This document shows positions 1,014 to 39,067 of a DNA stretch of 47,154 bases, piece after piece (the stretch's first letter is position 1; every line of letters begins with the position of its first letter). The DNA comes from Novosphingobium capsulatum (GTDB lineage: Bacteria > Pseudomonadota > Alphaproteobacteria > Sphingomonadales > Sphingomonadaceae). A program made the position numbers and the translations under genes. The DNA lies in contig DQVI01000111.1 in assembly GCA_015661825.1 (NCBI GenBank), positions 1 through 47,154 of the forward strand, given 5' to 3'. Below the pieces are notes generated by a model, which worked only from the letters and a program-made list of their open reading frames with translations, had not been told where the DNA came from and did not search any database.

Positions 1014-1832
1014 TCAGTCGCGGATCGCAGTGGCGACCAGCTTGTGCAGGCGCGAGTGGAGGCCATCGTTGGCCGCCAGCACCGTTTCGTCGCAGATCTG
1101 CGGCGAACGGCCACGATAGTCGGACACGAAACCGCCCGCCTCGCGCACGAGCAGGCAGCCTGCTGCCGTGTCCCAGGGCTTGAGGCTGCTTTCCCAGAAG
1201 CCGTCGTAACGGCCGGCAGCCACCCAGGCCAGATCGAGCGAGGCCGCGCCGAAGCGGCGGATGCCCGCCACGCGGGTGCCGATCTCGTGGTAGATGCGCG
1301 TCCATTCGCCCATGTCGCCCTGCCCGGCAAACGGGATGCCCGTGGCGATCACCGATTCGTCGAGATGGCGGCGCGCCGAAACGCGCAGGCGGCGGTCCTG
1401 AAGCCAGGCGCCGCGGCTCTTCTCGGCCCAGAAGCTCTCGTCGGTCATCGGCTGGTAGACCAGACCGGCGATCACCTCGCCCCAGCCCGAACCGTCGGGC
1501 AGGGCTTCCTGCACCGCGATGGAGATCGCAAAGTGCGGGATGCCGTGAAGAAAGTTGGTGGTGCCATCGAGCGGATCGATGATCCAGCGCGGCTTGGTCG
1601 GGTCGCCCTCGATCTTGCCGCTCTCTTCCATCAGGAAGTTCCAGTCGGGACGCGCGGCGCGCAGTTCCTCGTAGATCGTACGCTCAGCCGCCCTGTCCGC
1701 CTTCGACACGAAGTCGGCGGGGCCCTTGCGGCTCACCTGAAGGTGTTCGACTTCGCCGAAGTCACGGCGCAGACGCGTACCGGCTTTGCGCGCGGCACGC
1801 TCCATCACCCGGACAAGACCTGAAATCGCCAT
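1014..1832 (-). CDS. suhB: Inositol monophosphatase family protein (SuhB-like)
   Basis: A Mg2+-dependent phosphatase of the IMPase superfamily, 272 aa, cytoplasmic. The metal-binding signatures are complete: EE at 69-70, DPLDGTTNF (86-94, motif A) and WDTAAGCLLVREAGG (220-234, motif B). The usual substrate is inositol-1-phosphate; SuhB homologues also act in rRNA transcription antitermination. The ATG at 1832 lies 4 nt after the efp stop, so it is very probably co-transcribed with and translationally coupled to efp, an arrangement common in alphaproteobacteria. A second IMPase-family gene lies at 24776-25585; this copy is the closer match to SuhB because of its motif A spacing and its efp linkage. 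The physiological substrate is inferred. Confidence 0.9.
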   Translation of the reverse strand: MAISGLVRVMERAARKAGTRLRRDFGEVEHLQVSRKGPADFVSKADRAAERTIYEELRAARPDWNFLMEESGKIEGDPTKPRWIIDPLDGTTNFLHGIPHFAISIAVQEALPDGSGWGEVIAGLVYQPMTDESFWAEKSRGAWLQDRRLRVSARRHLDESVIATGIPFAGQGDMGEWTRIYHEIGTRVAGIRRFGAASLDLAWVAAGRYDGFWESSLKPWDTAAGCLLVREAGGFVSDYRGRSPQICDETVLAANDGLHSRLHKLVATAIRD

Positions 1833-1836
1833 GATC

Positions 1837-2400
1837 TCAGCCCGCCTTGCCGACGTACGTGCGTTCGTAGACGTCCACCACGATGCGCGTGCCGCTTTCG
1901 ATATGCGGCGGCACCAGAATGCGCACGCCGTTGTCGAGCACGGCGGGCTTGTACGACGAAGAAGCGGTCTGGCCCTTCACCACGGCGTCGGCCTCGACGA
2001 TGGTGGCTTCGACGGTTTCGGGCAGTTCGACCGAGATCGGGCGCTCGTCATACATTTCGAGCAGAACGGTCATGCCATCCTGAAGAAAGGCAGCGGCATC
2101 GCCCAGAAGATCGCGCGGCAGGGTGATCTGGTCGTAGGTTTCCACGTCCATGAACACGAGGTCTTCGCCCTCGGCATAGAGGAACTGGAAGTCCTTGGTG
2201 TCGAGACGCACGCGCTCGACCGTATCGGCGCTGCGGAAGCGCACGTTGGTCTTGCGCCCGTCGATCAGGTTCTTCATTTCGACCTGCATGAACGCGCCGC
2301 CCTTGCCGGGCTGGGTGTGCTGGGTCTTGGCAACCTTCCAGATGCCTTTTTCGTATTCCAGGATATTGCCCGGACGGATGTCCACGCCGCTGATCTTCAT
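1837..2400 (-). CDS. efp: Translation elongation factor P
   Basis: EF-P, 187 aa, binds between the ribosomal P and E sites and relieves stalling at polyproline stretches. The N-terminal KOW-like domain carries PGKGGAF with K33 at the tip of the loop, the position lysylated by EpmA in many bacteria. The two OB-fold domains follow, ending in a typical [13 protein letters not shown]-like tail. The length is normal for the family (185-190). It is the first gene of an efp-suhB pair. No epmA/epmB gene is in the window, so modification of K33 cannot be inferred here. Confidence 0.97.
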
Positions 2401-2493
2401 GATGGAAAGAGCCCTGACGAGTATGGGAAAGCGCGCGCCTTAGCCCAGGTCGCCGATTGCTTCAAGCCGGTGCTGCGTGCTAGCGGGTCGGAC

Positions 2494-2946
2494 ATGACAA
2501 AGCGCCCCGCTCTCTGTGCTGCTCTCCGCCCTGCTCTCGTGCCGGTTTCCTGCGTGCTGCTGGCGATTACCTCCGCCACCCCCGCCTTCGCAGCGCCCGG
2601 CGGCGACCTGAGCACGCTGCACAATGGCCGCTGGACTTGCGAAATGCCCGGAACCGCCGTGTCGCAGCCCAAGCCCGAAGCCGACGAAGGCTTCCGCATC
2701 ATGCCCGATTCCAGCTATCGCACGCCCGATGGCACCTCGGGCGGCGGCTATCTCCTGCTCGGGCGGGCGCTGACCTTCACGTCGGGGCCCTACAATGGCC
2801 GCCGGTTCGAGGCGCAGAGCGCCAGCACCGTCCTGCAACTCGACAGCGACGGGCGGCGCACGGGCCTGCGCTGCGTGCGCGTCGGCCCGCCCGTGGGCGG
2901 TTTCTCCGACGCGCCGCAGGCCGTCACCACCGACGGCAGCAACTGA
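2494..2946 (+). CDS. Small secreted protein of unknown function
   Basis: 150 aa, transcribed divergently from efp, with starts 93 nt apart. The N-terminus is a clear Sec signal peptide: a basic start, a hydrophobic core at about 14-28 and an Ala-x-Ala cleavage site near residue 33 (TPAFAAPG). The mature part contains WTCEMPG with one cysteine and a second cysteine near residue 130 (LRCVRVG), so a disulfide across a small beta-rich domain is plausible. It is rich in Gly and Ser and has no catalytic motif I recognise. Coding is supported by the signal peptide and by an uninterrupted frame from this ATG to the stop just before the OPT gene. It is probably periplasmic. Confidence 0.7.
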   Translation: MTKRPALCAALRPALVPVSCVLLAITSATPAFAAPGGDLSTLHNGRWTCEMPGTAVSQPKPEADEGFRIMPDSSYRTPDGTSGGGYLLLGRALTFTSGPYNGRRFEAQSASTVLQLDSDGRRTGLRCVRVGPPVGGFSDAPQAVTTDGSN

Positions 2947-2954
2947 TCAGCTGA

Positions 2955-4913
2955 TCATCGCGCGGCCCGCACCATCCGGGCATAGGCATAGGCGACCAGC
3001 GCGGCAAACAGCGCGAGCCCGAGCGGCATCGCCCAACCCTGCGTGCCCGCCACGGCCAGAATGTCGGCCTTGCCGCTTCCCGCCACGAGCGCGGCAAAAG
3101 CGATGTTGAACAGCCCGTCGCCCACGATCAGGCCCGTGGCGGTCAGCACGCCCATGCGCTCGGCCAGCGCCGGATCGCGCTGGCGTTCAGCCCAGCGATT
3201 GTAGACATGGCCCAGCACCGCGCCGACGACGACCGGCAGCGTGGTGGGCATCGGCAGATACATCCCCATGCCCACCGCCAGCGCGGGCAAGGAGCCCTTG
3301 CCGCGCGCGCGCAGGATCTCGTCGACGGCAATCGCCCCCGCGCCGATCAGCGCGCCCAGCCCCACCAGCGACCAGTCGAGCCCCTGCCCGAGCACGCCCT
3401 GAATGATCGCGGAAATCAGCGCGGCCTGGGGCGCGGCCAGTGCATCGGGCCCGGCACCGGGCGCGCCGACGAACCCGAACGTGCTGTTCAACAGCGAGAG
3501 GATCGGCGGGATCACCAGCGAACCGAACACCACGCCCAGCGCCAGCGCGACCTGCTGGCGCCACGGTGTCGCGCCGACCAGTTCACCGGTCTTGAGGTCT
3601 TGCAGGTTGTCGTTGGAAATGGTCGCCACGCCGAAGACCAGCGCGGTCACGAACAGGGCAAAGGCGACCAGCGCCTTGCCCGATGCCGGATCGGCCAGAT
3701 GCCCGAACAGCGCCAGCAGGACGAGCGCGATGCCCAGCGCCGCCAGAATGCCCACGCCCGAGATCGGGCTGTTCGAAGCCCCGATCAGCCCGGCCATATA
3801 GCCGCAGACCGAAGCAATGATCACGCCCGCGACCAGAACATAGAGCACCGTCGCCACGAGCGTCGCCACCAGATGATCGGCCGCCGGGCCCCCACTGGCA
3901 AAGCTCGCCAGAAGCCCCGCAATCGGCAGCATCAGCGCGAGGATCGTGCCCCCGACAAGGCCGATGGGCAAGTCGCGCTCGGTCAGGTCGAGCCCGGCAT
4001 AGCCCTGCGCCGCACGCGCCCGGCTCGCCGCCAGCGCGCCCGCGATCCCGCGCACGATCGGGCCGATCACCCGCAGCAGGGTCCAGATTGCGGCAACGCC
4101 GATGGTCCCCGCACCGATAAAGCGGATCTTGGCGCGAAATACGCCCGAGACGAAATCGGCCAGATCGGTGCCCGCTGGTGCGCCCCCGGCGGTATAGATC
4201 GGCAGCAGGACGCCAAAGCCGATGACGATCCCGCTCAAAATCGCAAGGCCCACGGCAAGGCCGACCAGATGGCCAACCCCGATCAGCGCGAGCGAAAGCC
4301 CGCCCCCCGCCGTTGTTGCCCCGCCGCCCAGACGGAATACCCCGCTCGCCTCCTCGGCCACCACGCCCAGCTTGGCCAGCAGCGGATACCCGGCGGACAG
4401 CGCCGTTCCGGTCGCCACGGCGGCCAGACCCTTGCGGTTTTCCTCCGAGCCCGCTTCGCCCGCGCCGACCTTGAGCACTTCGGCAGCAGCCACGCCCTCG
4501 GGATAGGGCAGGTCCGACCCGGTCACCAGCGCGCGGCGCAGCGGAACCGAATACATCACCCCCAGAATGCCGCCGATGGCGATCACCGCCATCGACTGCC
4601 AATAGGGAAAGCCACTCCACCAGCCGACCATGACCAGACCGGGCAGCACGAAGACAATCGCCGAAAGCGTGCCCGCCGAACTGGCGATGGTCTGGACGAT
4701 GTTGTTTTCCTGAATGGTCGATCCGGGCAGCAGCCGCAGGATCGCCATCGAGATCACCGCCGCGGGGATCGAGGTCGCAAAAGTCAGCCCGATGCGCAGG
4801 CCCAGATAGACATTGGCGGCGGTGAAGACCACCGTGAGCAGCGCGCCGAGCGCGACGCCGCGCCATGTCAGTTCTTTGGGCGGGGGTTCGTGTGGGTGGG
4901 TCTTGGCCGTCAT
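2955..4913 (-). CDS. OPT-family oligopeptide/metal-chelate transporter
   Basis: A polytopic inner-membrane protein, 652 aa, of the OPT (oligopeptide transporter/YSL) superfamily. It shows many hydrophobic helices and the family landmark NIVQTIASSAGTLSA near residues 70-85, with DLPYPEGVAAAEVLK further on, which is typical of the prokaryotic OPT group. It is thought to import peptides or metal-peptide complexes using a proton gradient. I chose the ATG at 4913 because AGGAG lies 8-9 nt upstream and the next residues (TAKTHPHEPPPKELT) are a normal cytoplasmic tail; an in-frame start at 5009 would add a Cys-rich segment without a ribosome binding site. It converges on the small secreted protein gene, with stops about 8 nt apart. 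The substrate is unknown. Confidence 0.88.
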   Translation of the reverse strand: MTAKTHPHEPPPKELTWRGVALGALLTVVFTAANVYLGLRIGLTFATSIPAAVISMAILRLLPGSTIQENNIVQTIASSAGTLSAIVFVLPGLVMVGWWSGFPYWQSMAVIAIGGILGVMYSVPLRRALVTGSDLPYPEGVAAAEVLKVGAGEAGSEENRKGLAAVATGTALSAGYPLLAKLGVVAEEASGVFRLGGGATTAGGGLSLALIGVGHLVGLAVGLAILSGIVIGFGVLLPIYTAGGAPAGTDLADFVSGVFRAKIRFIGAGTIGVAAIWTLLRVIGPIVRGIAGALAASRARAAQGYAGLDLTERDLPIGLVGGTILALMLPIAGLLASFASGGPAADHLVATLVATVLYVLVAGVIIASVCGYMAGLIGASNSPISGVGILAALGIALVLLALFGHLADPASGKALVAFALFVTALVFGVATISNDNLQDLKTGELVGATPWRQQVALALGVVFGSLVIPPILSLLNSTFGFVGAPGAGPDALAAPQAALISAIIQGVLGQGLDWSLVGLGALIGAGAIAVDEILRARGKGSLPALAVGMGMYLPMPTTLPVVVGAVLGHVYNRWAERQRDPALAERMGVLTATGLIVGDGLFNIAFAALVAGSGKADILAVAGTQGWAMPLGLALFAALVAYAYARMVRAAR

Positions 4914-5012
4914 GTCACGTTTCTCCTGCGCGCAAGCCGCCCGGTTGCGTGGACAAATTCGAAGTGTGCCGAGTTTGCAAAAGACAGTACGGAACGATGC
5001 TTGAGACATCTC

Positions 5013-5105
5013 TCGTCATTCCCGCGCAGGCGGGAATCCAGTTGCGAGGGTCGCGCATGCGAACGGGGCTCAAAAGCTGGATCCCCGCCTGCGCGGGGAT
5101 GACGA
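5013..5105. repeat. Dispersed palindromic repeat (MITE/REP-like)
   Basis: Two 29-nt arms, 5013-5041 and 5077-5105, are inverted copies with 27 of 29 positions matching, around a 35-nt centre. The arms start with TCGTCATTCCCGC and GC-rich palindromes lie inside each arm. Elements with the same arm consensus are scattered in intergenic DNA of many Proteobacteria and give spurious peptides of the 'RAGGDP...LDSRLRGNDE' type. It lies between the OPT gene start and thiE. Confidence 0.85.
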
Positions 5106-26322: not shown

Positions 26323-26350
26323 AGGCAAATCTAGACAGGCAAATCTAGAC
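26323..26350. repeat. 14-bp tandem duplication at the addA stop
   Basis: AGGCAAATCTAGAC occurs twice head to tail (26323-26336 and 26337-26350) and the next four bases start a third copy. The second unit contains the addA stop codon, so the duplication left the protein unchanged. Confidence 0.9.
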
Positions 26351-29300
26351 AGGCTGGGGCCGATGGAGCGCCAGAACCCCGGGCGGAACCGCGATCAGGT
26401 GCGGCGCATGGGTATAAAGGAGCGCGGCCTCGACCCGGCGGCCCGGATGGATCGCGCCGAGCGCCGCGGCATAGGCCGCCATCTGGCGCAAAGTCGCCAC
26501 CGGCACATCTTCAAGCCGTGCTGGCGGACGCCGCGCGGTCTTGAAGTCGACGATCAGCACGCGCTCGTCCTCGATCAGCAGGCGGTCGATCTTGCCCGAG
26601 ACCACGCGCCCCTCGACAACAGCAGCCAGCGGCACTTCGGCGAGCGACTGCGGCCCGAACACCCCCTGCCAGTCGGGATGGTTGAGCACGGCACAGGCCG
26701 CGCGCACCATGTCCTCGTGCTGGTCTGGCGCAAAATCGGCGGCCTGCCGCGCCAGCCAGCCGAGCGCAGCTTCTTCGCGCTCGTCACGCGGCACGGCGGG
26801 CATGCGTTCGATCAGGCGGTGGATCAGCGTCCCCCGCCGCGCCGCCATCAAGGCCCCCGGCCCCGGCTGCGTCGGCGGATCGGGGGCTTCGTCGTCGCCC
26901 AACGCCGAAGGGGCGAGCGGGCGCGGCGGGCGCGGTTCGGGGCCGATCGGAGTGGTCAGGACCGGCGGCAGAAGTGGCAGGCCCAGAGAGGTGGCGGGCT
27001 GATACCCCTGCGAAACCGGCGGCCCGGCCATGCCGATATCGCGCGCACCGTCCCAGATCGGATCGGGCGCCCAGCCCTCGCCGTCATCTTCTTCGCCCTC
27101 GAACAGCGGTTGCAGACGGGCATACCAACTGTCGGCGGGCAAATCCTTGCGGCTCTTGGGCCGCGCGCCGGCAATGAACAGCGCCTCTTCGGCGCGGGTC
27201 AGGGCCACATAGAGCAGGCGCCAGTGTTCGGCCCGTTCCTCCAGCGCGGCTTTTTCCTGCGCGGCGCGCACGGGGCCCGCTTTCTCGGCCTTGCGCAAGG
27301 GCGGCAGCGGCACCGCGCGCGCGGCCTGTCCGGGCACGACAACGCGCTCGTGCAGTTCGCCCCCGCGCGCCATGCTCGCGTCCGGGTCGTCGGCGGCATC
27401 GGCAAGGATCACGATCGGCGCCTGAAGCCCCTTCGAGCCATGGACGGTCATCACCCGCACCAGATTGGCGGCCTGCCCGGCCTCGCGCTTCAGCTCGCCA
27501 TCGCCGCTGTCGAACCACTGGATGAAGCCGACGAGGCTGGCCACCTGCCCCGAGGCATAGGCCATCGCCGCATTGAGCAGTTCGTCGATGGGGTCGTTGG
27601 CCTCGCGCCCCAGCCGCGCGACAAGGCGATAGCGCGCCTGCCACGGCCCCACCAGCAACCAGTGCAGCAACGACGCAGGCGGCTCGTAATCGGCGCGGCG
27701 CAGCAAATCGAGCAGCCGCTCGACACCCTCGACCGTGGCCGGATCACGCGAAGCGGCCAGATGGCTCCACAGCCGCACCCCGTCCTTGCGATAGCTGCGC
27801 GCCAGCAAGTCTTCCTGGCTCCACCCGATCAGCGGGGAAACCAGCAGATTGGCAAGGTTGAGGTCGTCGAACGGCTGCGCACAGAACCGCAGCGCGGCCA
27901 TCAGGTCCTTGACCGCCAGCGGCGCCCCCAGCCGCAGGCGATCGACCCCCGCCACCGGCACGCCATGGGCATGAAGCCGTGCCACGATCAGCCCGGCCAG
28001 ATCCTTGCGCTTGCGCACGAGGACCATGATGTCGCCCGGACCGGCATTGCGCGGCTTGCCCTTGTGCAGCGGGTATCCGGTGTCGATCCAGAGCCGCACC
28101 TGCCGTGCCAGCCGGTCGGCCAGATCGCGGTCGGGCCGCGAGAGCCAGTTTTCCGCGCCCTCCTCCCCGGCCTCGGGCGCGTCGTCATCCTCGCTACTCT
28201 CGTCCGAACCATCGCCGACCGTGCGCCAGAGCCGCACGAGACCGGGGCGCATGTCGCCCACATGCTGCTCGGGCGCCTCGGGCAGGCCGAACCGCTCGGG
28301 GCCGATGGTCTGGATCGCGCGGTCAACAAACGCCAGAATCGGCATCGCCGTGCGATAGGATTGCCCAAGGCCGAGCGAGAGCAGCTTGCGTGTTTCCTCG
28401 CCGGTGGCCTCGGCCAGCCCGGCCAGTTCGCGCCGCACCTGCTCGCGCGCTTTGGCAAAATTTTCCGGGCTGGTGCCCTGAAAACCAAAGATCGCCTGTT
28501 TGTAGTCGCCCACCACGAACAGCGTGCGCGCGCGTTCGCTCTCGCCGCTGAAGAAATCGTCGACCAGCCCCTTGAGCACGATGCGCCATTGCGCCTCGTT
28601 GGTGTCCTGCGCCTCGTCGACCAGCACATGGTCGAAACGCCGGTCAAGCTTGAAGCGGATCCACTCGGCCGAGGCCCGCTCGGTCAGAAGCGCAGCCGCA
28701 GCGCGGATCTGGTCGTCGAAATCGATGAAGCCTTCGCGCGCCTTGGCCGCGTCCCACGCGAGGGCAAAGCGCCGCCCGACGGTCAGCGCCGGGTCGAGCA
28801 GGTCGGCCAGTGCCAAGAGCGCCGCCCGCTCGCGCAAGGCGGCGATCCCGGCGATCACGCGCGCCTGATAGTCGCCATAGGCCGGTTCATGCTTGTCGAT
28901 GTTGCGGGTCGACTTGGCCTCGCCCTTGCCGGTCAGGAACAGCTTGGCAAAGTCGTCGATCCCGGCGAGGCGCGCCTGCGGGTTGCAGGCCAGCCAATCG
29001 CCCATCATGTTGGCCGCGTCGATCCCGGTCCTGGTGCCCCAGGCGGCATTGGCCTCCATGCAGCGGCGCACCGAGGCAATGTCAAAGGCCTCGTCCGAAC
29101 AGAACGCGGCCAGATCGCTGCCGTCCTCGTCGGCCTCAAGCCCCAGCAACCGGTTGATCTGCGGGCGCAGCGGCAGCTGCCAGCCGGTCGGCCCGGTCCA
29201 CAGCTCGATGGCCGAGGCACAGCGCAGCAGGAAGCCGATGACGCTCCCCTGATCCATCCGCAGCGCCAGCAGCGCGAGGGCGTCGAGCAGGCCCTCGTCG

Positions 29301-29815
29301 CCATGCTCCTCGGCCTCGACCAGCATCTGGGCGAGCACCTCGCGCACGAGCAGTTCGCGGTCGCGATCCTCCATCGCCCGCGTCCCCGGCAAAAGCCCGG
29401 ATTCGACCGGAAAGGCCGAGAGCAGCCACTGCGAAAAGGCGTGGATCGTCTCGATCCGCAGGCCGCCGCCGGGGCAATCGAGCACGGCGGCAAAGCGGCT
29501 GCGCGCGCGCGCCAGCTTGTCGGGCCCGGCCTGCGCGCCAATCGCCTCCAGATCGGCAAACAGCTCCACATCGGGCATCCGCACCCAGCGCGCCAGCACA
29601 TCGTTGACGCGCGTGGCCATTTCCGCCGCGCCCGCCTTGGTAAAGGTCAGGCACAGGATATTCTCCGGCTCGACATCGGGCTGAAGCAACAGGCGCAGCA
29701 CGCGCGCGGACAGCACCTGCGTCTTGCCCGTGCCTGCCGAAGCGGAAAGCCAGACCGTGCGATCAGGCGCGACCGCGCGGGCCTGGTTGCCCTGAAGCGG
29801 ATAGACCTTGCTCAC
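26345..29815 (-). CDS. addA: Double-strand break repair helicase-nuclease AddA
   Basis: 1156 aa. With AddB it resects double-strand breaks and responds to Chi-like sites before RecA loading; it replaces RecBCD here. A UvrD-type helicase with Walker A SASAGTGKT near residues 24-32, VDEAQDTNEAQW (motif II) and VMTVHGSKGLQAPIV (motif V-like). The C-terminal RecB-family nuclease has GKIDRLLIEDERVLIVDFKT (D and D-x-K). Starts at GTG 29815, overlapping the addB TGA by 3 nt in GTGA. The stop lies within a 14-bp tandem duplication. Confidence 0.96.
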   Translation of the reverse strand: MSKVYPLQGNQARAVAPDRTVWLSASAGTGKTQVLSARVLRLLLQPDVEPENILCLTFTKAGAAEMATRVNDVLARWVRMPDVELFADLEAIGAQAGPDKLARARSRFAAVLDCPGGGLRIETIHAFSQWLLSAFPVESGLLPGTRAMEDRDRELLVREVLAQMLVEAEEHGDEGLLDALALLALRMDQGSVIGFLLRCASAIELWTGPTGWQLPLRPQINRLLGLEADEDGSDLAAFCSDEAFDIASVRRCMEANAAWGTRTGIDAANMMGDWLACNPQARLAGIDDFAKLFLTGKGEAKSTRNIDKHEPAYGDYQARVIAGIAALRERAALLALADLLDPALTVGRRFALAWDAAKAREGFIDFDDQIRAAAALLTERASAEWIRFKLDRRFDHVLVDEAQDTNEAQWRIVLKGLVDDFFSGESERARTLFVVGDYKQAIFGFQGTSPENFAKAREQVRRELAGLAEATGEETRKLLSLGLGQSYRTAMPILAFVDRAIQTIGPERFGLPEAPEQHVGDMRPGLVRLWRTVGDGSDESSEDDDAPEAGEEGAENWLSRPDRDLADRLARQVRLWIDTGYPLHKGKPRNAGPGDIMVLVRKRKDLAGLIVARLHAHGVPVAGVDRLRLGAPLAVKDLMAALRFCAQPFDDLNLANLLVSPLIGWSQEDLLARSYRKDGVRLWSHLAASRDPATVEGVERLLDLLRRADYEPPASLLHWLLVGPWQARYRLVARLGREANDPIDELLNAAMAYASGQVASLVGFIQWFDSGDGELKREAGQAANLVRVMTVHGSKGLQAPIVILADAADDPDASMARGGELHERVVVPGQAARAVPLPPLRKAEKAGPVRAAQEKAALEERAEHWRLLYVALTRAEEALFIAGARPKSRKDLPADSWYARLQPLFEGEEDDGEGWAPDPIWDGARDIGMAGPPVSQGYQPATSLGLPLLPPVLTTPIGPEPRPPRPLAPSALGDDEAPDPPTQPGPGALMAARRGTLIHRLIERMPAVPRDEREEAALGWLARQAADFAPDQHEDMVRAACAVLNHPDWQGVFGPQSLAEVPLAAVVEGRVVSGKIDRLLIEDERVLIVDFKTARRPPARLEDVPVATLRQMAAYAAALGAIHPGRRVEAALLYTHAPHLIAVPPGVLALHRPQPV

Positions 29816-32800
29816 AATGCGTCCTGCCCTTCATCATCGCGCCCATCACGGCCCTGCCATTCTTCGAGCCGCATCAACTGGTCATAGTCGGCATAGCCGG
29901 GCAGATCGGGGTTGAGCCGCGCGGTGAACGGCTCGGTGCCCAGGATCCACCGGGCAATCGCCTCTTCGAGAAAACGCCGCGTCTCGGGCAGAAAATCCTC
30001 GCGCGGGATGCCCGATTTGCGCCGCCCTTCGAGGATCGGCTCGCGCATGAAGCCAAAGCCGCCGCCCTTGGGATCGCGTGCCAGCGACCAGTATTCAAAG
30101 CGCGAAGGGTCGCCCTCCACCCGCAGCTTGCCGTCCTTGTCGCGGAAGCCGCCCTCTTGCGCGATCAGGCCGATCAGCCCCAATTGCAGGGCAAAGCCTT
30201 CCTGAACCATCCGTCCCGAAGGCGGGGTGCCGGTCTTGTAGTCGACAATCGCCAGGGTGCCATCGGCCAGCCGGTCGATCCGGTCGGCGCGGCCAAAGAT
30301 GCGCACGCCCTCCACCCGCGTCTCGCCCCAGCATTCGAACGCGGCGACATCGCGGCCCTCGCCCGCCAGACGATCCTGTTCGTCCTCGATCCAGCCGAGC
30401 GCGGCAAGCAGGCGCGGACGCCACAGGCTGCGCATGAACGGATGCGCGCTCATCTGCGCCAGCGCGCGCTCGGCCAACGGGATCAGTTCGCCCGGCGGTG
30501 CGCCCGCGCGGTGCCAGGCTTCGAGAATGGCGTGAACCGCCGTCCCGCGCCAGGCCGGGGTCGGATCGGCGTCGCGCGGGTCAATCGTCTTGAGCCCCAG
30601 AATCGACGCGGCATAGAACTGGTACGGGTCGGACCGCAGGCGGTCGAGCGCGGTCACCGCAATATCGACCCGCCGCTGGTCGCGGCTCGGCAGGGGCCGG
30701 GGGCGGCGATAGGCCGGGGCTTGCGCCGCATGGTCGAGCGCCTTGCCCCATTGCACCGCGTCCGTTTCCCAGACGACGTCTTCCTCGTCGAGCAGGGCGT
30801 GGACGCGCAGCAAAAAGCGCGAAGGTATCGCCGGGCCGCTGGCATCACGTTCGGCATAGCTGAGCACGACTTCGGGCGCGCCGAGCATCGCGGCCAGATC
30901 GTGCGCGGCAAGGCCGATGCGGAAATCGGCCCCCGGAATGCCCAGCGCGCGCAGGATCGGCGGGGCCAGCAGCGGATCGGGCGTGGGCGCGGCGGGCCAT
31001 GAGCCTTCGGTCATCCCCGCGCAGATCACGAGGTCGGCCCGGCTCATCCGCGCTTCGAGCAGGCCATAGATCGCCAGACGCGGATGGCCGCCATAGGGCG
31101 GGCGCACCGAAACCTCGTCCATCGCATCGCGCAAGAGCGCGGGGATCTCGCGCGGGTCGACCGGCAGGCTGCCCGCCTGCGCCGCCGCCTCGCGCCATTG
31201 CTCGACAAACTGCGCCAGCGCGCGCCCGTCGGCATTGCCCCAGATGCTTGCGCCCGCCAGCGTTTCGGCCAGATCGGCCAGCATGGTCAGCGTGGCGGCC
31301 AGCGGCAAGCCATCGTCCTGCTCCAGCCCACTCGCGCCGAGCAGCGGCAGGAGCAGCAGTTCGACCCCGTCCCACCAGGCCGAAAGGCCCAGATAGCGCT
31401 TTTCGCGCTCGCGCACGGCCTCGCGGATCGGCTCCAGTCCGGGGCCGGGACGCGGGCCCCGCAAGACCAGGTCGAGTTGCCGCACGCGCTCCAGCCAGGC
31501 TGCGCGTGCCTCGCCCGCCATGACCAGCGGATGGCCGAGCAGCGCCAGCAGGGCGACGGGCGCGCAGCGTTCGGCGCGCACTTGCGCCAGTTGCAGGAAC
31601 AGGCGGCCGGCGACCGTCTGGGGCAAGGGCCGCCCGGCGGTATCGTCAGCCGCGATGTTCCAGCGTTCGAGATGCGCAATAACGCGCGAGGCCAGTCCGC
31701 GATCGGGGGTGACAACCGCCACCCGGCGTTCGGGCTGGGCCAGCGCCTGCCGCACGAGAACGGCAATCGCCTGCGCTTCTTCTTCCGGGTGCGTGCTGCG
31801 CATCAGGCGCACGCCGGTAAAGCGCCGGTCGCCCGGCGGCAGGTCGATCCACGCCGTGCTCGCCTCGGGCGGCAGGAACAGGTTGGAAATCGCCCGGCTG
31901 CGCGCAGGGGGCGCGGCGGACATCCCGGCGCGGTGCCACGGCTTCACGTCCTCGCGCGTCAGGCCCATGCGGGTGAGCAGCAGTTTGAGGTGATATTGCG
32001 GGTGGGTGAGTTGGTCCCCGCGCCCGAACACCGGGCCCGGTTCCCCCGTTTCGGCGTTCTCCTCGCTCGCCCCCGCCTGCCCCAGTGCGTCCCAGACGGC
32101 AGGATCGAGCGCGAGGTCGAGATCGGGCAGTACCACCGCCCCTTGCGGCAGATCGGCGACCGTGCGCAACAGCCGCGCAATCGCGGGCGCGCCCGAAGTC
32201 ACCCCGGCGGCGATCACCGGAAACGGCGGCGGCGCCAAGCGCCACGCCTGCGCGGCATGGTCGAGCAGAAGGTTGCGCCGCACCGGCGCATCGACCTGCC
32301 CGCGCTCCTCCAGTTCAAAGCGCCAGCGCATCTGCACCCGCGCGAACAGGCGCAGGCTGTCCTGCCAGTGTTCGGCCAGTTCGGGCAGCATGTCGATGGT
32401 GAGCAATTGCTCGGGCGCGACATCCTCGGCGGCCATGCGGTCGAGCGACTGGGCGAGGCTGCGCGCCTGACGGACCAGCCCGGCCTCGCCGCGCACGATC
32501 CCTTCGGCCTGCAATTCCCCGCGCAGCAATTCGGCCAGCCGCAAGAGGCGAAAAACCGGATCGCAGGCAGGCGGCGCCACGCTGCCCCCGCCCAGCGGAT
32601 CGAGCAGCGCGCCGAGCGTCTCGTCAAGATCGAGGTCGCCCACCACCGCCATGCGCGGCAGCAGCAGCCCCCCGCCCGAGGCGCGGACAAAGGCCTCGGT
32701 CAGGTTGCGCACCGCGCGCTGGCTGGGCAGCAGCAGGGTGAGCCGCGCAAGGCCGAACGTGTCCTCGCGATAGCGCGGCAAAAGCCCGGCCACGAGGGCA

Positions 32801-32856
32801 TCGGCAAAGCCGCGATGGGCGGCGATGGTATAGACGCTTGCGCCCCGGCTGCTCAC
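29812..32856 (-). CDS. addB: Double-strand break repair protein AddB
   Basis: 1014 aa, partner of AddA. The N-terminal half is a degenerate helicase fold: LTLLLPSQRAVRNL stands where a Walker A would be and no GKT is present, as in alphaproteobacterial AddB. The C-terminal nuclease domain shows FGRADRIDRLADGTLAIVDYKTG with the catalytic Asp and Lys, near residue 865-890. GTG start at 32856 within GTGA, overlapping the murU stop. The tight overlaps argue for coupled synthesis of the two subunits. Confidence 0.95.
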   Translation of the reverse strand: MSSRGASVYTIAAHRGFADALVAGLLPRYREDTFGLARLTLLLPSQRAVRNLTEAFVRASGGGLLLPRMAVVGDLDLDETLGALLDPLGGGSVAPPACDPVFRLLRLAELLRGELQAEGIVRGEAGLVRQARSLAQSLDRMAAEDVAPEQLLTIDMLPELAEHWQDSLRLFARVQMRWRFELEERGQVDAPVRRNLLLDHAAQAWRLAPPPFPVIAAGVTSGAPAIARLLRTVADLPQGAVVLPDLDLALDPAVWDALGQAGASEENAETGEPGPVFGRGDQLTHPQYHLKLLLTRMGLTREDVKPWHRAGMSAAPPARSRAISNLFLPPEASTAWIDLPPGDRRFTGVRLMRSTHPEEEAQAIAVLVRQALAQPERRVAVVTPDRGLASRVIAHLERWNIAADDTAGRPLPQTVAGRLFLQLAQVRAERCAPVALLALLGHPLVMAGEARAAWLERVRQLDLVLRGPRPGPGLEPIREAVREREKRYLGLSAWWDGVELLLLPLLGASGLEQDDGLPLAATLTMLADLAETLAGASIWGNADGRALAQFVEQWREAAAQAGSLPVDPREIPALLRDAMDEVSVRPPYGGHPRLAIYGLLEARMSRADLVICAGMTEGSWPAAPTPDPLLAPPILRALGIPGADFRIGLAAHDLAAMLGAPEVVLSYAERDASGPAIPSRFLLRVHALLDEEDVVWETDAVQWGKALDHAAQAPAYRRPRPLPSRDQRRVDIAVTALDRLRSDPYQFYAASILGLKTIDPRDADPTPAWRGTAVHAILEAWHRAGAPPGELIPLAERALAQMSAHPFMRSLWRPRLLAALGWIEDEQDRLAGEGRDVAAFECWGETRVEGVRIFGRADRIDRLADGTLAIVDYKTGTPPSGRMVQEGFALQLGLIGLIAQEGGFRDKDGKLRVEGDPSRFEYWSLARDPKGGGFGFMREPILEGRRKSGIPREDFLPETRRFLEEAIARWILGTEPFTARLNPDLPGYADYDQLMRLEEWQGRDGRDDEGQDAL

Positions 32857-33575
32857 GCTCCGGTGAGCGCCTGAACGGTCGGCGCGATCATCTCGGGCGC
32901 GCCCACCTCATACCACAGCCCGGTATGGGGCAGACCATAGAGCCGCCCTTCGGCAATCGCCCGGTCCCACAAGATCCCGGTCGAGAAGGCCCCTTGCGGC
33001 GCATCGCGCAAGAGCCGCTGCGACACGATCTGGATGCCGGTGAAGATATAGGGCGCCACCCGCCCCGGCTTGCGCCGCGCGACAAGGCCCATGGGATCGA
33101 GATGGAAATCACCGGGCCCGGCATAGTTGAAGGCCTGCGCATGGCTGACCATCAGCAAAAGCGCGTCCATCCGCGCCGGGTCCCAGGCATCGGACAGAGC
33201 GGCAAAGACATTGCGCGGCCCGTCGAGCCAGATATTGTCGCTGTTGAGGCAGAAGAACGTCTCGCGGCCGATCAGCGGCAGCGCCTTGACGAGGCCGCCC
33301 CCGGTTTCGAGCAAGGCCTCGCGTTCGTCCGAAACGACGATGGCCGGGGCCTCGCGCATCAGGACATGGGCTTCTAGCTGGTCGGCCAGATAGTGGGCAT
33401 TGACCACCGCGCGTGTCACGCCCGCCTCTGACAGCTTGTCGAGCGCATGGTCGATCAGCGCCTTGCCCGCCACGCGCACGAGCGGCTTGGGGCGGCTGAC
33501 AGTGAGCGGGCGCATCCGCTTGCCGATCCCGGCAGCCAGCACCATCGCGGTGTCGGAAACCAGAGGCTTGCTCAT
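32853..33575 (-). CDS. murU: N-acetylmuramate-1-phosphate uridylyltransferase (MurU-like)
   Basis: 240 aa nucleotidyltransferase with the signature LAAGIGKRMRPLT and RPKPLVRVAGKALI, then LLETGGGLVKAL and NSDNIWLDG (metal-binding Asp). In the AmgK-MurU route described from Pseudomonas, it converts MurNAc-1-phosphate and UTP to UDP-MurNAc, bypassing MurA and de novo synthesis. Its adjacency to an amgK-type kinase makes this specific call much better than the generic 'mannose-1-phosphate guanylyltransferase' label such proteins often receive. ATG 33575 overlaps the amgK stop by ATGA, with GGGGAG upstream. Confidence 0.85.
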   Translation of the reverse strand: MSKPLVSDTAMVLAAGIGKRMRPLTVSRPKPLVRVAGKALIDHALDKLSEAGVTRAVVNAHYLADQLEAHVLMREAPAIVVSDEREALLETGGGLVKALPLIGRETFFCLNSDNIWLDGPRNVFAALSDAWDPARMDALLLMVSHAQAFNYAGPGDFHLDPMGLVARRKPGRVAPYIFTGIQIVSQRLLRDAPQGAFSTGILWDRAIAEGRLYGLPHTGLWYEVGAPEMIAPTVQALTGA

Positions 33576-34567
33576 GCTGCAAACTCCCCACCCAGACGCC
33601 GCGCCGGATCGCGCAAGTCAGCCGGGATATTGGCATCAAACCAGCGCGCCACCGGGGCGAGCGCGGGATGGGCCAGATCGCGTTCGAGCATGGCCCAGAC
33701 ACGCGGGATATAATCGAGATAGCGCGGCTTGCCGTCGCGCTTCCACAGGCGCACGAAAATGCCCACGATCTTGGTGTTCCGCTGCGCGCCCAGTCGGGCA
33801 TAGTCGGCGAGGAAATCCCCCTGCGGCTGCGCCTTTTCGACATAATAGTCGAACATGCGCGCCTCCAGTTCGGGCGAAACCTCGCGCCGCGCGTCCTGCA
33901 ACAACGAGACGAGATCATAGGCCGGATGGCCGGTCAGCGCGTCCTGAAAGTCGAGCAGGCCCTGCGTTTCGAGCCCGCCGAGCAGCATGATGTTCTCGGC
34001 GTGATAATCGCGCAGCACGGTCACGCCGGGGCGCTGGTTGGGCAGCAAGGGCGCGAGCACCTCTTCCCAGGCCTTCTGCCAGCCCTCCACGTCGACATAG
34101 AGCGCGCGCGCCGGGCAGAACCATTCGATGAACAGCTTCACCTCGCGCAAGTACTCGCTCATGCCATAGGCGGTGAACGGCCCGGCAGGCAGGTGCGCCA
34201 GTTCGACCAGAACGTCGATCGCCGCGCGATAGACCGCGTCCTCGTCCTGCGGCCAGGCGTCGAGATATTCGCGGCAGCGGACATTCCCGAAATCTTCGAG
34301 CAAGACCCAGCCATTGCCCGCATCTTCAGCCAGAATCGCGGGCGCGCGCAAGCCATTGGCGTCGAGCCAGCGCGCCGCGCGCAGGAACGGCTGCGGGTCT
34401 TCCTGCGGCGGGGGCGCGTGCATCAGCATCGCGCTGCTGCCATCGCTTCGCACCACGCGGAAATAGCGGCGGAACGAGGCATCGCCGGGCAAAGGTTCGA
34501 TTGCGGCGCCCGCCCAGCCCGCATGGGCCAGGAACGCCTCGATTCCCATCGGAAGATCGCTGCTCAT
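33572..34567 (-). CDS. amgK: N-acetylmuramate/N-acetylglucosamine anomeric kinase (AmgK-like)
   Basis: 331 aa, aminoglycoside-phosphotransferase fold. Catalytic loop VLRDYHAENIMLL (usually HGDxxxxN; the aligned Asp and Asn are present) and metal motif LLDFQDALTGHPAYDLV. Predicted to phosphorylate MurNAc at C1 for recycling of peptidoglycan sugars, handing the product to MurU encoded next to it. Its start ATG at 34567 overlaps the tsaE stop (ATGA). Older annotation often calls this gene 'phosphotransferase' only. The AmgK role is inferred from gene pairing and fold. Confidence 0.85.
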   Translation of the reverse strand: MSSDLPMGIEAFLAHAGWAGAAIEPLPGDASFRRYFRVVRSDGSSAMLMHAPPPQEDPQPFLRAARWLDANGLRAPAILAEDAGNGWVLLEDFGNVRCREYLDAWPQDEDAVYRAAIDVLVELAHLPAGPFTAYGMSEYLREVKLFIEWFCPARALYVDVEGWQKAWEEVLAPLLPNQRPGVTVLRDYHAENIMLLGGLETQGLLDFQDALTGHPAYDLVSLLQDARREVSPELEARMFDYYVEKAQPQGDFLADYARLGAQRNTKIVGIFVRLWKRDGKPRYLDYIPRVWAMLERDLAHPALAPVARWFDANIPADLRDPARRLGGEFAA

Positions 34568-35013
34568 GGCAAACGCTCTAGCCAGCCAGTGCCCGGCAAG
34601 ACAATGGCCTGCCGTCCGTTTTCCGCTATTTCCAGACGCAGCGTCAGGCACCCGGCCTCGTGGGCAAACCCCCCGGCATGGTCGGGCCATTCGGCAATCA
34701 GCACCGCGCCATACCGATAATCGTCCAGCCCGAGCTCTTCGGCCTCAGCCGGGTCGTTCAAGCGATAGAAATCGGCATGGACCACCGGCAGGCGCACGGC
34801 GGGCGGATCATACGTCTCGACGATGGTGAAGCTGGGCGAAGGCACCTCGCCCTCGTGGCCCAGCGCTTCGAGCAGGGCGCGCGCCAGCGTGGTCTTGCCC
34901 GCCCCCAGCGTCCCTTCGAGGGCCAGAACATCGCCCGCGCGCAGCAGGGGGGCAAGGCGCCGGGCAAAGGCCTGCGTTGCGGCCAGATCGGGCAAGGGAA
35001 CGACTGAAGACAT
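34564..35013 (-). CDS. tsaE: tRNA t6A biosynthesis ATPase TsaE
   Basis: 149 aa. Partners TsaB and TsaD in making N6-threonylcarbamoyl-adenosine at position 37 of ANN-decoding tRNAs. P-loop GTLGAGKTTLARALL at about 34-48, then PSPSFTIVETY and HADFYRL, the TsaE signatures. ATG 35013 chosen because the conserved region begins soon after; a long upstream extension overlaps the divL 3' end and is Arg-rich shadow sequence. It lies 35 nt past the divL stop. Confidence 0.95.
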   Translation of the reverse strand: MSSVVPLPDLAATQAFARRLAPLLRAGDVLALEGTLGAGKTTLARALLEALGHEGEVPSPSFTIVETYDPPAVRLPVVHADFYRLNDPAEAEELGLDDYRYGAVLIAEWPDHAGGFAHEAGCLTLRLEIAENGRQAIVLPGTGWLERLP

Positions 35014-35048: not shown

Positions 35049-37382
35049 TCAGGGCAGCGTGACAATCGCGCTGGTGCCCGCGCCCGGCTCGGACAGCAGT
35101 TCGAACTGCCCCCCATGCGCGGCGATCAACTGGCGCACGAGCGGCAGGCCCAGCCCCAGCCGGCGCTCGACCGGGCGGCCATCGGCACTCAGGCTCAGGC
35201 CCTCCATCGCGCGGGCCAGCGCGGCCGCATCCATGCCCTTGCCATTGTCGGAGACGACCACGCGCACGTCGTGCGCCTGCCGCGTGCATTCGACGAGAAT
35301 GCGCCCACCCTCCGGCGTGGCAGCCATGGCATTGTCGATCAGCAGGCCAAAAACCTTGCGCAGGCGGCGCACGTCGCCCGTCACTTTGCCCACAGCCGAC
35401 GTGCCGCGCAAATCGAGGGTCAGCCCTGCGGCGGTGATCTTCTCGGCCCGTTCGCGCACGACATCGGCCAGCAGCGGGAAAATATCGACCGGCTCGCGCG
35501 CGAGGGGCAACATGCCCGCCTCGCTCTGCGACAGGTCGAGCACGTTCTCGATCTGCTCGCCCAGCCGCGCCACCGAGGCCAGAATGGCGGCGACATAGTC
35601 GCGCGCCTGCGGGGTCAGTTCCCCGGCAAGGCCGCTGTCGAGCATTTCGGCAAAGCCGCCGATGGAATTGAGCGGATTGCGGAATTCATAGCTCATGTTG
35701 GCCATGAACCGCGACTTGACCGCGTCGGCCTCGATCAGCGCGGCATTGCGCTCGCGCAGGGCGGCTTCGGCCTTCTGGGAATCGGTGATGTCGAGGACGG
35801 TCAGCAGGCCATTGCCATCGGGCAGCGGCACGCCGGAAAATTCGAGGTGGCGCCCATCGGCCAGCGCCAGACGCCCGCTGGTCTGCTTGCGTTCGAGCGT
35901 GGCGGCCTGAATCACCTGCCCGATCTGCCCCACTTGCGCCGGGCGGCGCAGCGAGGGCGCCAGACGGGTGAGCAGGTGATCGGCACGCGGATGGGTGGCG
36001 AGGAACTCCTCGTCGAGCGCCCAGTCGGTGGCAAAGCGGCGGTTCCACAGTTGCACGCGGCTGTCCGGCCCGAACACCGCGAGCGATTCGAACAAGTTGT
36101 CGAACGTGGCCGTGCGCGTGCGCAGCAGGGTGTCGCGCGTGGCCGAAAGCTGCAACTGCTCGGTCCGGTCCTCGAAGATCAGCAGCAGCCCGCCGTCGGG
36201 CATCGGCTGGGCGACGACGCGCAAATGCGTGCCGTCCGACAGGTGCCATGGCTCCTCGCGCGGCTCGCGCGCGTGAAACCATGCCTGCCGCTCGCGCCGC
36301 CACTCGGGAAAATCGCGCACTTCTGGCACCTTGCCGCCATCGCGCAGCCGGTCGAGCACGCGGTCGAAGGGCGGCGTATCGGCAACCCAGGCGGGCGGAA
36401 TGGCAAAGATGCGCAGGAACGGCTGGTTGGCAAAGACCAGATTGCGGCCTGCGTCGAACTGGGCGATCCCCGCCGAAAGGGTGTCGAGCGTCTGCCGCTC
36501 GGCCTCGCGGAAGCGGCGGAACTGGCGGGTCAGTTCCTCCATCTGCTCGATATCGACGGCATAGCCGGCCACGCCTTCGGCACCGATGGGAAGGTCGCTC
36601 ACCCGCATCGTGCGGCGCTGGCCGTTGATCGTGGCCGACACCACCCGTTCGAGCGGGCGCCCGCTGGCAAAGACATCGGCGGCCACTTTGGCCGGGGTCG
36701 GCCCCTCGCCCGCCTCGACCAGCTCGATCCCCTGCTCGACGACATCGACCGCGCTGGCCGCGCCCACGGCCCGGACATAGGCCGAATTGACCAGCCGCAG
36801 GCGCATGGCCGCATCGCGAAACCACATCGGCAGGGGCGCGGCCTCGATCAGCCCGGCCAGCCCCGAAAAATCGGCATGGGCCTGCGCGGATTCAGCTTCC
36901 AGCGCGCGAACCCGGCTTTCGCTGTCGGTCGCATCGAAGACCCAGAGCAGCGCCGCATCGGCAGGGGCCACTTGCGGATCGGCCAGCCCGCCACGCACGG
37001 ACAGCGTGCGGGTACCCCCACGCGGAACCAGCACCATGGCCAGCGGCGCCCCGGTCTTCTGGGTGTGGCGCACGGCCTGCGTCAAGGCGCCCAGCGTCTG
37101 GGCGTCGAGCACATCTTCCAGCTCGGTCAGGTAATCGGGCAGGGCATCGCGCCCCAGCCATCCGGCCAGCCGCGAGGCGCCCTCGATCCGCCCGTCGGCG
37201 CGGACCAGCAGCGGCAGGGCGGGCGCTTCCTCGACCATGCGGGCCAGCTTGCGCGCGAGTTGCTGCGCCCCTTGCGCACGGGCCATGCGCGCGCGCGCGG
37301 CCAGCACCGCCCAGCCAGCCACCAGCGTCCAGACCGCCAGAAGCAGCGCCACGGCCACGAGTGCAAGGGAATGGGACTGCAT
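35049..37382 (-). CDS. divL: DivL-type PAS sensor kinase with Tyr in place of the H-box His
   Basis: 777 aa. One N-terminal membrane helix (about 5-28), several PAS-like segments through about 540, then a kinase core. The dimerisation helix reads FMANMSYEFRNPLNSIGG: Y565 replaces the phospho-acceptor histidine of ordinary kinases. The ATP-binding domain is intact (IDNAMAAT, SDNGKGMD, GLGLPLVRQL). This is the defining feature of DivL, which in Caulobacter crescentus works with CckA and DivK to control CtrA activity. Linkage to tsaE-amgK-murU-addBA supports the call. I chose ATG 37382; a TTG at 37418 would add 12 residues. The N-terminal sequence differs greatly between species, so orthology rests on Tyr, architecture and context. 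Confidence 0.82.
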   Translation of the reverse strand: MQSHSLALVAVALLLAVWTLVAGWAVLAARARMARAQGAQQLARKLARMVEEAPALPLLVRADGRIEGASRLAGWLGRDALPDYLTELEDVLDAQTLGALTQAVRHTQKTGAPLAMVLVPRGGTRTLSVRGGLADPQVAPADAALLWVFDATDSESRVRALEAESAQAHADFSGLAGLIEAAPLPMWFRDAAMRLRLVNSAYVRAVGAASAVDVVEQGIELVEAGEGPTPAKVAADVFASGRPLERVVSATINGQRRTMRVSDLPIGAEGVAGYAVDIEQMEELTRQFRRFREAERQTLDTLSAGIAQFDAGRNLVFANQPFLRIFAIPPAWVADTPPFDRVLDRLRDGGKVPEVRDFPEWRRERQAWFHAREPREEPWHLSDGTHLRVVAQPMPDGGLLLIFEDRTEQLQLSATRDTLLRTRTATFDNLFESLAVFGPDSRVQLWNRRFATDWALDEEFLATHPRADHLLTRLAPSLRRPAQVGQIGQVIQAATLERKQTSGRLALADGRHLEFSGVPLPDGNGLLTVLDITDSQKAEAALRERNAALIEADAVKSRFMANMSYEFRNPLNSIGGFAEMLDSGLAGELTPQARDYVAAILASVARLGEQIENVLDLSQSEAGMLPLAREPVDIFPLLADVVRERAEKITAAGLTLDLRGTSAVGKVTGDVRRLRKVFGLLIDNAMAATPEGGRILVECTRQAHDVRVVVSDNGKGMDAAALARAMEGLSLSADGRPVERRLGLGLPLVRQLIAAHGGQFELLSEPGAGTSAIVTLP

Positions 37383-37462
37383 CGGCCCATGGCTAGGCCC
37401 AGCGCCCGCAATTGACAACTGTACGAACCTTCAAAAATGGCCAAAACCGGCGCAACAGGCCC

Positions 37463-37533: not shown

Positions 37534-38940
<1,407 letters not shown>

Positions 38941-39067
38941 GAGGCTTTTCTCCGTCAAATGAGGTATTTTCACGTCCCAGAGCCGCGCGCGAAATCCGCG
39001 CCAGGCGGATCACGGCGGATCGTTGATGGCTGCCTCTTAGCCGCTCCCCACCGGCAGGGCAACGTTA

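Follow-up and report, generated by a model that had tools for sequence, protein, structure and literature searches.

A DivL orthologue with tyrosine in place of the phospho-accepting histidine in a Novosphingobium-like sphingomonad

The closest described system is the DivL protein of Caulobacter crescentus, for which the available text of PMC4211667 reports an absence of autokinase activity, weak binding of TNP-ATP (57 uM) and binding of DivK~P via a docking face. The Introduction of that paper describes the tyrosine at the phospho-acceptor site as conserved throughout alphaproteobacterial DivL homologues, with the alanine of Magnetospirillum as the exception; conservation of the tyrosine is already known, and in the part of the paper available only Ala, not His, is named as an exception. 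The short DivL of Rhodobacterales, which has PAS domains only and no kinase core, belongs to the same CckA-ChpT-CtrA pathway, as far as the accessible text of PMC9430884 goes. A literature search on DivL together with Sphingomonas, Sphingomonadales or Novosphingobium gave no apparent study of sphingomonad DivL in the partial texts returned. A phosphorelay of Sphingomonas melonis was reportedly described by Francez-Charlot in 2015.

We analyzed a gene in a window of 47,154 nucleotides, by which we mean the whole stretch of DNA studied, and consider it almost certain that this gene encodes the DivL of a Novosphingobium-like sphingomonad. It is a sphingomonad copy of a known cell-cycle pseudokinase and, because its tyrosine is old and common to most relatives, the finding is genuine but ordinary. 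Unlike the short Rhodobacterales proteins, the window protein keeps the whole core, and its genome keeps a DivK homologue.

Identity, domain layout and neighborhood of the gene

The divL orthologue lies at 35049..37418 on the minus strand, the frame encoding 777 residues from the ATG at 37382, or 789 from the TTG at 37418 that opens the ORF. The plus strand reads ATA at 35688..35690, within FMANMSYEFRNPLNS, giving a TAT codon on the minus strand for a tyrosine numbered 565 from the ATG (577 from the TTG); the sequence, the residue count and the pairwise alignment to C. crescentus DivL (PDB 4q20), in which Tyr565 sits on Tyr550, all place it at the phospho-acceptor site, as the initial annotation had proposed. 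The protein thus lacks the phospho-accepting histidine of an ordinary HisKA histidine kinase, while matching Pfam HisKA (E 3.5e-17) and HATPase_c (E 8.9e-19).

An AlphaFold2 model (45 sequences, mean pLDDT 88, pTM 0.41), which given its pTM we trust for the domains and not for their arrangement, predicts a helix at the N terminus, four PAS-like folds that were recognized by inspection, and then the DHp hairpin and the CA domain. The hydrophobic N-terminal segment in the translation (residues 5-29; 37296..37370, minus strand, as are all features below), part of a helix modeled over residues 3-52, is a probable membrane anchor. The first two PAS-like folds are predicted at residues 55-150 (36933..37220), named from the order of strands and helices, and residues 182-277 (36552..36839), the latter with a weak Pfam PAS match at 177-216 (E 0.0043, below cut-off). 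The third and fourth, also modeled, correspond to PAS_7 (residues 302-405, 36168..36479; 1.2e-26) and PAS_4 (residues 430-531, 35790..36095; 3.2e-9). The DHp hairpin (residues 533-621, 35520..35786), carrying Y565, E566 and R568, is assigned from HisKA, the model and structural alignment to 4q20_B, and the poorly conserved CA (ATP-binding-like) domain (residues 630-777, 35052..35495) from HATPase_c and column counts. The DHp-CA core thus stands behind several PAS domains, and the N terminus is rich in PAS, as the available text of PMC4211667 has it for the Caulobacter protein.

The best PDB sequence match is 4q20 itself (E 1.7e-36, over residues 547-787 of the 789-residue form), which shares both the tyrosine and the DHp-CA core; the runner-up scores 5.2e-22. 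RetS and GacS kinases (6dk7, 7z8n), of the same DHp-CA fold and about 30% (RetS) and 29% (GacS) identical over the aligned part, hold ranks 2-4 with much weaker E-values than DivL (5e-22 to 2e-18). In a DHp-CA tree, built by a quick method from hand-picked rows with the Tyr column removed and containing several long kinase branches, 46 DivL rows including the window protein fall on one side of a branch and 17 kinases on the other (SH-aLRT 99). The fold alone is not specific for DivL, since 4q20 ranked ninth by E-value in Foldseek, after long multi-domain kinases and phytochromes, and first in VIA-align (4q20_B, Z 23.8, 223 aligned, rmsd 4.3) but tied within 1 Z with the next row (23.4). PDB sequence match, tree and synteny agree in upholding the DivL signature that had first been noticed at the tyrosine.

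The proposal that the PAS region is sphingomonad-specific, also made in the initial annotation, did not survive comparison at class level and is ruled out. Over residues 166-545, 92 of 95 class-level rows align, with median identity 0.26-0.35, and over residues 1-165, 72-75 of the 95 align at a median of 0.20; among 45 orthologues Pfam finds PAS_7 in 45 and PAS_4 in 44.

Both genes that commonly accompany divL adjoin it in the window, a supporting rather than a strict feature: ahcY upstream (37534..38973; TIGR00936 4.3e-176, above cut-off) and, 35 bp downstream, tsaE (34564..35013, ATG at 35013; Pfam TsaE 1.1e-34). Among Tyr rows with room for it, tsaE lies directly 3' of divL in 98 of 116 from the family and 38 of 39 from the order; at class level it does so in just 23 of 68 Tyr rows. 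Immediately behind tsaE, at 32853-34690, are cell-wall recycling genes: an amgK-like sugar kinase gene (33572..34690; NCBIfam AmgK 1.2e-69) and a murU-like nucleotidyltransferase gene (32853..33575; NCBIfam MurU 1.9e-73), each below the cut-off of its model. Farther on come addB (29812..32856; TIGR02786 2.5e-222) and addA (26345..29815; TIGR02784 3.9e-290), both above cut-off.

Age and spread of the tyrosine

DivL was sampled in overlapping sets of genomes, 119 from the family, 60 from the order and 190 from the class, and in named contigs, and most of the places found were fetched. The resulting alignment covers 253 loci, two of which (L257 and L258) are identical over the last 250 residues, and its named and unnamed collections may share species. 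In the column of Tyr565, 246 of 256 ORFs have a residue, namely 226 Tyr, 3 His, 3 Phe and 14 others; the ten with a gap are the second piece of L231, the first pieces of L327 and L329, and L233, L325, L326, L328, L330, L331 and L332. Seven class places with E < 1e-60 (a second copy in G184, and G014, G019, G162, G099, G139 and G096) lie outside the alignment. By sample, Tyr occupies the column in 117/117 family rows, the window included, 40/42 order rows and 69/87 class rows.

The corresponding column in 93 rows taken from other loci, most of them ordinary kinases but with two DivL remnants among them (L333 and L334, both with a gap), holds 58 His, 33 gaps and one each of Tyr and Asp, and in the Novosphingobium source genome five of six aligned kinases have His, the sixth (L006) having a gap. 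With 226 Tyr in 246 class-wide DivL rows, as opposed to 1 in the 60 rows from other loci with a residue, the occurrence of Tyr in DivL is far beyond chance.

The notion that an otherwise ordinary histidine kinase recently acquired Tyr by an isolated change from His, or that an assembly error masks a CAT codon, can draw on the fact that Tyr does occur outside DivL, in a kinase of a Methanothrix MAG; its probability is nevertheless negligible, because Tyr stands in all 117 family rows, the tree parts DivL from the kinases instead of setting the window protein among them, and three separately assembled relatives (L011-L013, 84-85% identical by tblastn) carry the same residue. A recent origin of the tyrosine in the window protein and a sequencing error are both refuted by the family alignment and the tree.

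Some rows are of interest in their own right. Three DivL orthologues have His at the Tyr site, L291 (G168, 2926-5019, minus strand), L298 (G041, 2770-4887, plus strand) and L099 (G093, 1387-3780, plus strand), and all three keep the nine scored core residues. In both members of family f41, tsaE follows the gene, ahcY is within reach and the genome encodes a 77-78% DivK; the short flanks of L099 contain neither of the two neighbors. A sensor tree that nests f41 next to a Tyr row requires two separate changes to explain His, and these proteins possibly represent a return to His. The Methanothrix kinase (L031, 294-2336, plus strand, on a contig labeled archaeal), which falls outside the DivL set, has its Tyr at the H-box, FMANMSYEIRTPMNA; it came from a search whose peptides included FMANMSYE. 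In G141, DivL (L329, 2985-5350, minus strand) is encoded by two overlapping ORFs, a 543-residue sensor and a 280-residue core; in its family mate G005 it is a single ORF.

Kinase core, pathway partners and proposed mode of action

The ATP-binding motifs, initially described as intact, are so with respect to the nucleotide-contact residues N684, D712, G714, G716, G743 and G745, but not at the positions that we take to be the N-box Lys site, now Ala687, and the two F-box Phe sites, now Met726 and Leu729. Since 101 of the 117 family rows retain all six N/D/G residues, ATP may still be bound weakly; the N-box site holds Lys or Arg in 24 of 117, and the F-box sites hold Phe in 49 and 46 of 117. With 4q20 residues counted from Tyr550, the window protein differs from Caulobacter DivL in having Glu612, Ser618 and Phe577 at the sites of D595, A601 and Y562, and in the Met and Leu at the F-box sites, which are Phe in 4q20 (HIFDRF).

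The tyrosine, E566 and R568 (R553 in C. crescentus) are present in 117/117 family rows, and the position of A601 is S, T or A in 117/117. The retention of R553 as R568, with a small residue at the A601 site, is suggestive of DivK~P docking by the window protein.

Conservation by domain was compared as median identity to the source-genome protein over ten hand-picked other family genomes. For DivL the medians were 0.60 and 0.55 for PAS, 0.59 for DHp and 0.39 for CA, and for CckA, in the same ten genomes, 0.56 for PAS, 0.85 for DHp, 0.70 for CA and 0.64 for the receiver. In DivL, then, CA has diverged more rapidly than PAS, and in CckA less rapidly, an inexpensive argument against residual catalysis. 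A DivL orthologue in which Tyr565 is phosphorylated, or the CA domain phosphorylates another target, would find some encouragement in the kept N/D/G residues of the N-, G1- and G2-boxes, both in the window protein and in the same 101 family rows, in the invariance of E566 directly after the tyrosine, and in the title of 4q20, which names DivL a tyrosine kinase. We regard this as very improbable, given that the Lys of the N-box and the Phe at each F-box site are replaced, that CA shows the lowest conservation among the four domains compared in DivL, which is not the case in CckA, and that the Caulobacter protein lacked autokinase activity and bound TNP-ATP only weakly, according to the text available from PMC4211667. 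Residual catalysis in the window protein appears unlikely from its residues, and, as between an allosteric partner and a catalyst, its sequence taken with the part of the Caulobacter biochemistry available to us in PMC4211667 leans toward the former.

Homologues of the partners are present in the source genome: ChpT (PF10090, 2.9e-28), a regulator resembling DivK (51% to the C. crescentus protein, 4.7e-36; a 151-residue frame whose end the match overruns), CtrA (80%) and CckA (66%, with PAS, HisKA, HATPase_c and receiver domains). Searching the source genome at the DNA level for the CckA H-box as AHDFNNLL gave no match; the H-box there is AHDFNNVL, and this CckA was recovered with a protein search.

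We favor, as a likely reading with its mechanism included, that the window protein is an allosteric regulator of CckA that reads DivK~P; the binding of DivK~P, the effect on CckA and the position at the membrane are taken over from Caulobacter. The N-terminal helix would hold DivL to the membrane and the DHp helices would dimerize, offering a face around Tyr565 and Arg568 on which DivK~P may dock by analogy with Caulobacter. The bound state would be relayed through the PAS region to CckA, shifting its kinase/phosphatase balance and so altering the CckA-ChpT-CtrA relay. Owing to the tyrosine, the core would read DivK~P and would not be a phospho-donor. Among the points counted against this mechanism are the identity of only 51% between the DivK-like regulator and that of Caulobacter and the low class-level count for tsaE given above.

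Co-occurrence with DivK and loss of DivL in the family

A DivL match at 1e-60 was missing from 4 of 60 order genomes, of 66-88% completeness, and from 14 of 119 family genomes. The first scan scored five candidates per class genome and eight per family genome; absence of DivL from the 14 rests on a rescan in which all candidates were scored. Remnants were found in two of them, a 626-residue frame without H-box in G202 and a piece near a contig end in G303, and G280, which has DivK, ChpT and CtrA, may owe its lack of DivL to an assembly gap. The other eleven are G192, G209, G219, G227, G251, G260, G284, G288, G293, G297 and G300.

In these eleven genomes DivK matches did not exceed 36% identity; ChpT was absent at E 0.001 from eight and, in three, had a low score of 33.5-43.9 bits that is still above Pfam's cut-off. 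CtrA had no match at 1e-55 in two and was 50-67% identical in nine; elsewhere in the family it was mostly 71-81%, with none in G202, G237 and G270, 67% in G196 and 47% in G211. CckA had no match at 1e-50 in three of the eleven. In six (G192, G284, G251, G260, G209 and G293; L385-L390) the H-box of CckA is located at ORF residue 159-230, compared with 343-608 in 14 other hand-picked family genomes, positions that are rough because the ORFs run from stop to stop; on the N-terminal side of the kinase core, CckA in these six is roughly 100-450 residues shorter. Orthology is less sure for G209 and G293, whose CckA is 51-54% like the query. In a CckA-core tree, which carries a warning of long branches meeting, the six fall on one branch side (100/100) and are accordingly counted as one event. 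G297 has no matches for DivL, DivK, ChpT or CtrA, in contrast to G217 of the same genus, which has a match for each of them; this hints at a second loss. The loss of DivL and DivK in the family thus largely traces to a single clade, at any rate among the six genomes in the CckA tree.

DivK is missing from 12 of the 14 family genomes without a DivL match and from 6 of the 105 with one (Fisher 1.6e-10, a value that is only descriptive, as the genomes are not independent); two of these six are 66-67% complete. In G233 (L233), DivL matches only to residue 553, and both this genome and G202, with its shortened DivL without H-box (L333/L379), have no DivK match at 1e-18; the available parts of PMC2877005 and PMC9430884 likewise associate core-less DivL with missing DivK. 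Across 95 class genomes, with DivK counted at 100 bits or more and split genes by their core piece, DivK was present/absent in 64/7 with Tyr, compared with 10/14 with a non-Tyr residue or no core (raw Fisher 4.6e-6). Among tree-independent pairs, with the fragmentary L325 and L327 left outside, the median p for Tyr with DivK was 0.375, or 0.625 with the traits exchanged, and, these being non-significant, we do not claim a class-wide association as shown.

These counts bear on whether DivL, in the lineage of the window, acts on CckA with no part played by DivK, whose wiring would then be degenerate and DivK docking illusory. Brilli 2010 (PMC2877005) describes DivJ-PleC-DivK, in the text available, as degenerate or lost in Sphingomonadales, which, together with the six DivL-bearing genomes without DivK, speaks for such an arrangement; a DivK-like regulator is, however, present in 101 of 119 family genomes by the rule applied in these counts, the source genome included, and R568 is invariant, so that we judge it improbable. 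Returning to a DivL that reads DivK~P, we tentatively raise the idea, itself rather doubtful, that sphingomonads possess a single removable input module made up of DivL, DivK and an N-terminal portion of CckA, to which the window protein would belong and in which that portion of CckA would receive the DivL signal.

The overall results extend the pseudokinase design of DivL to Novosphingobium and its family, where the tyrosine is without exception in the 117 rows with a residue, although the single gene matters little by itself. More interesting than the gene are two natural experiments, the His-bearing DivL proteins of other families and the sphingomonads without DivL and DivK, with a shorter CckA where it was seen, which could show the purpose of the tyrosine and that of the DivL input.
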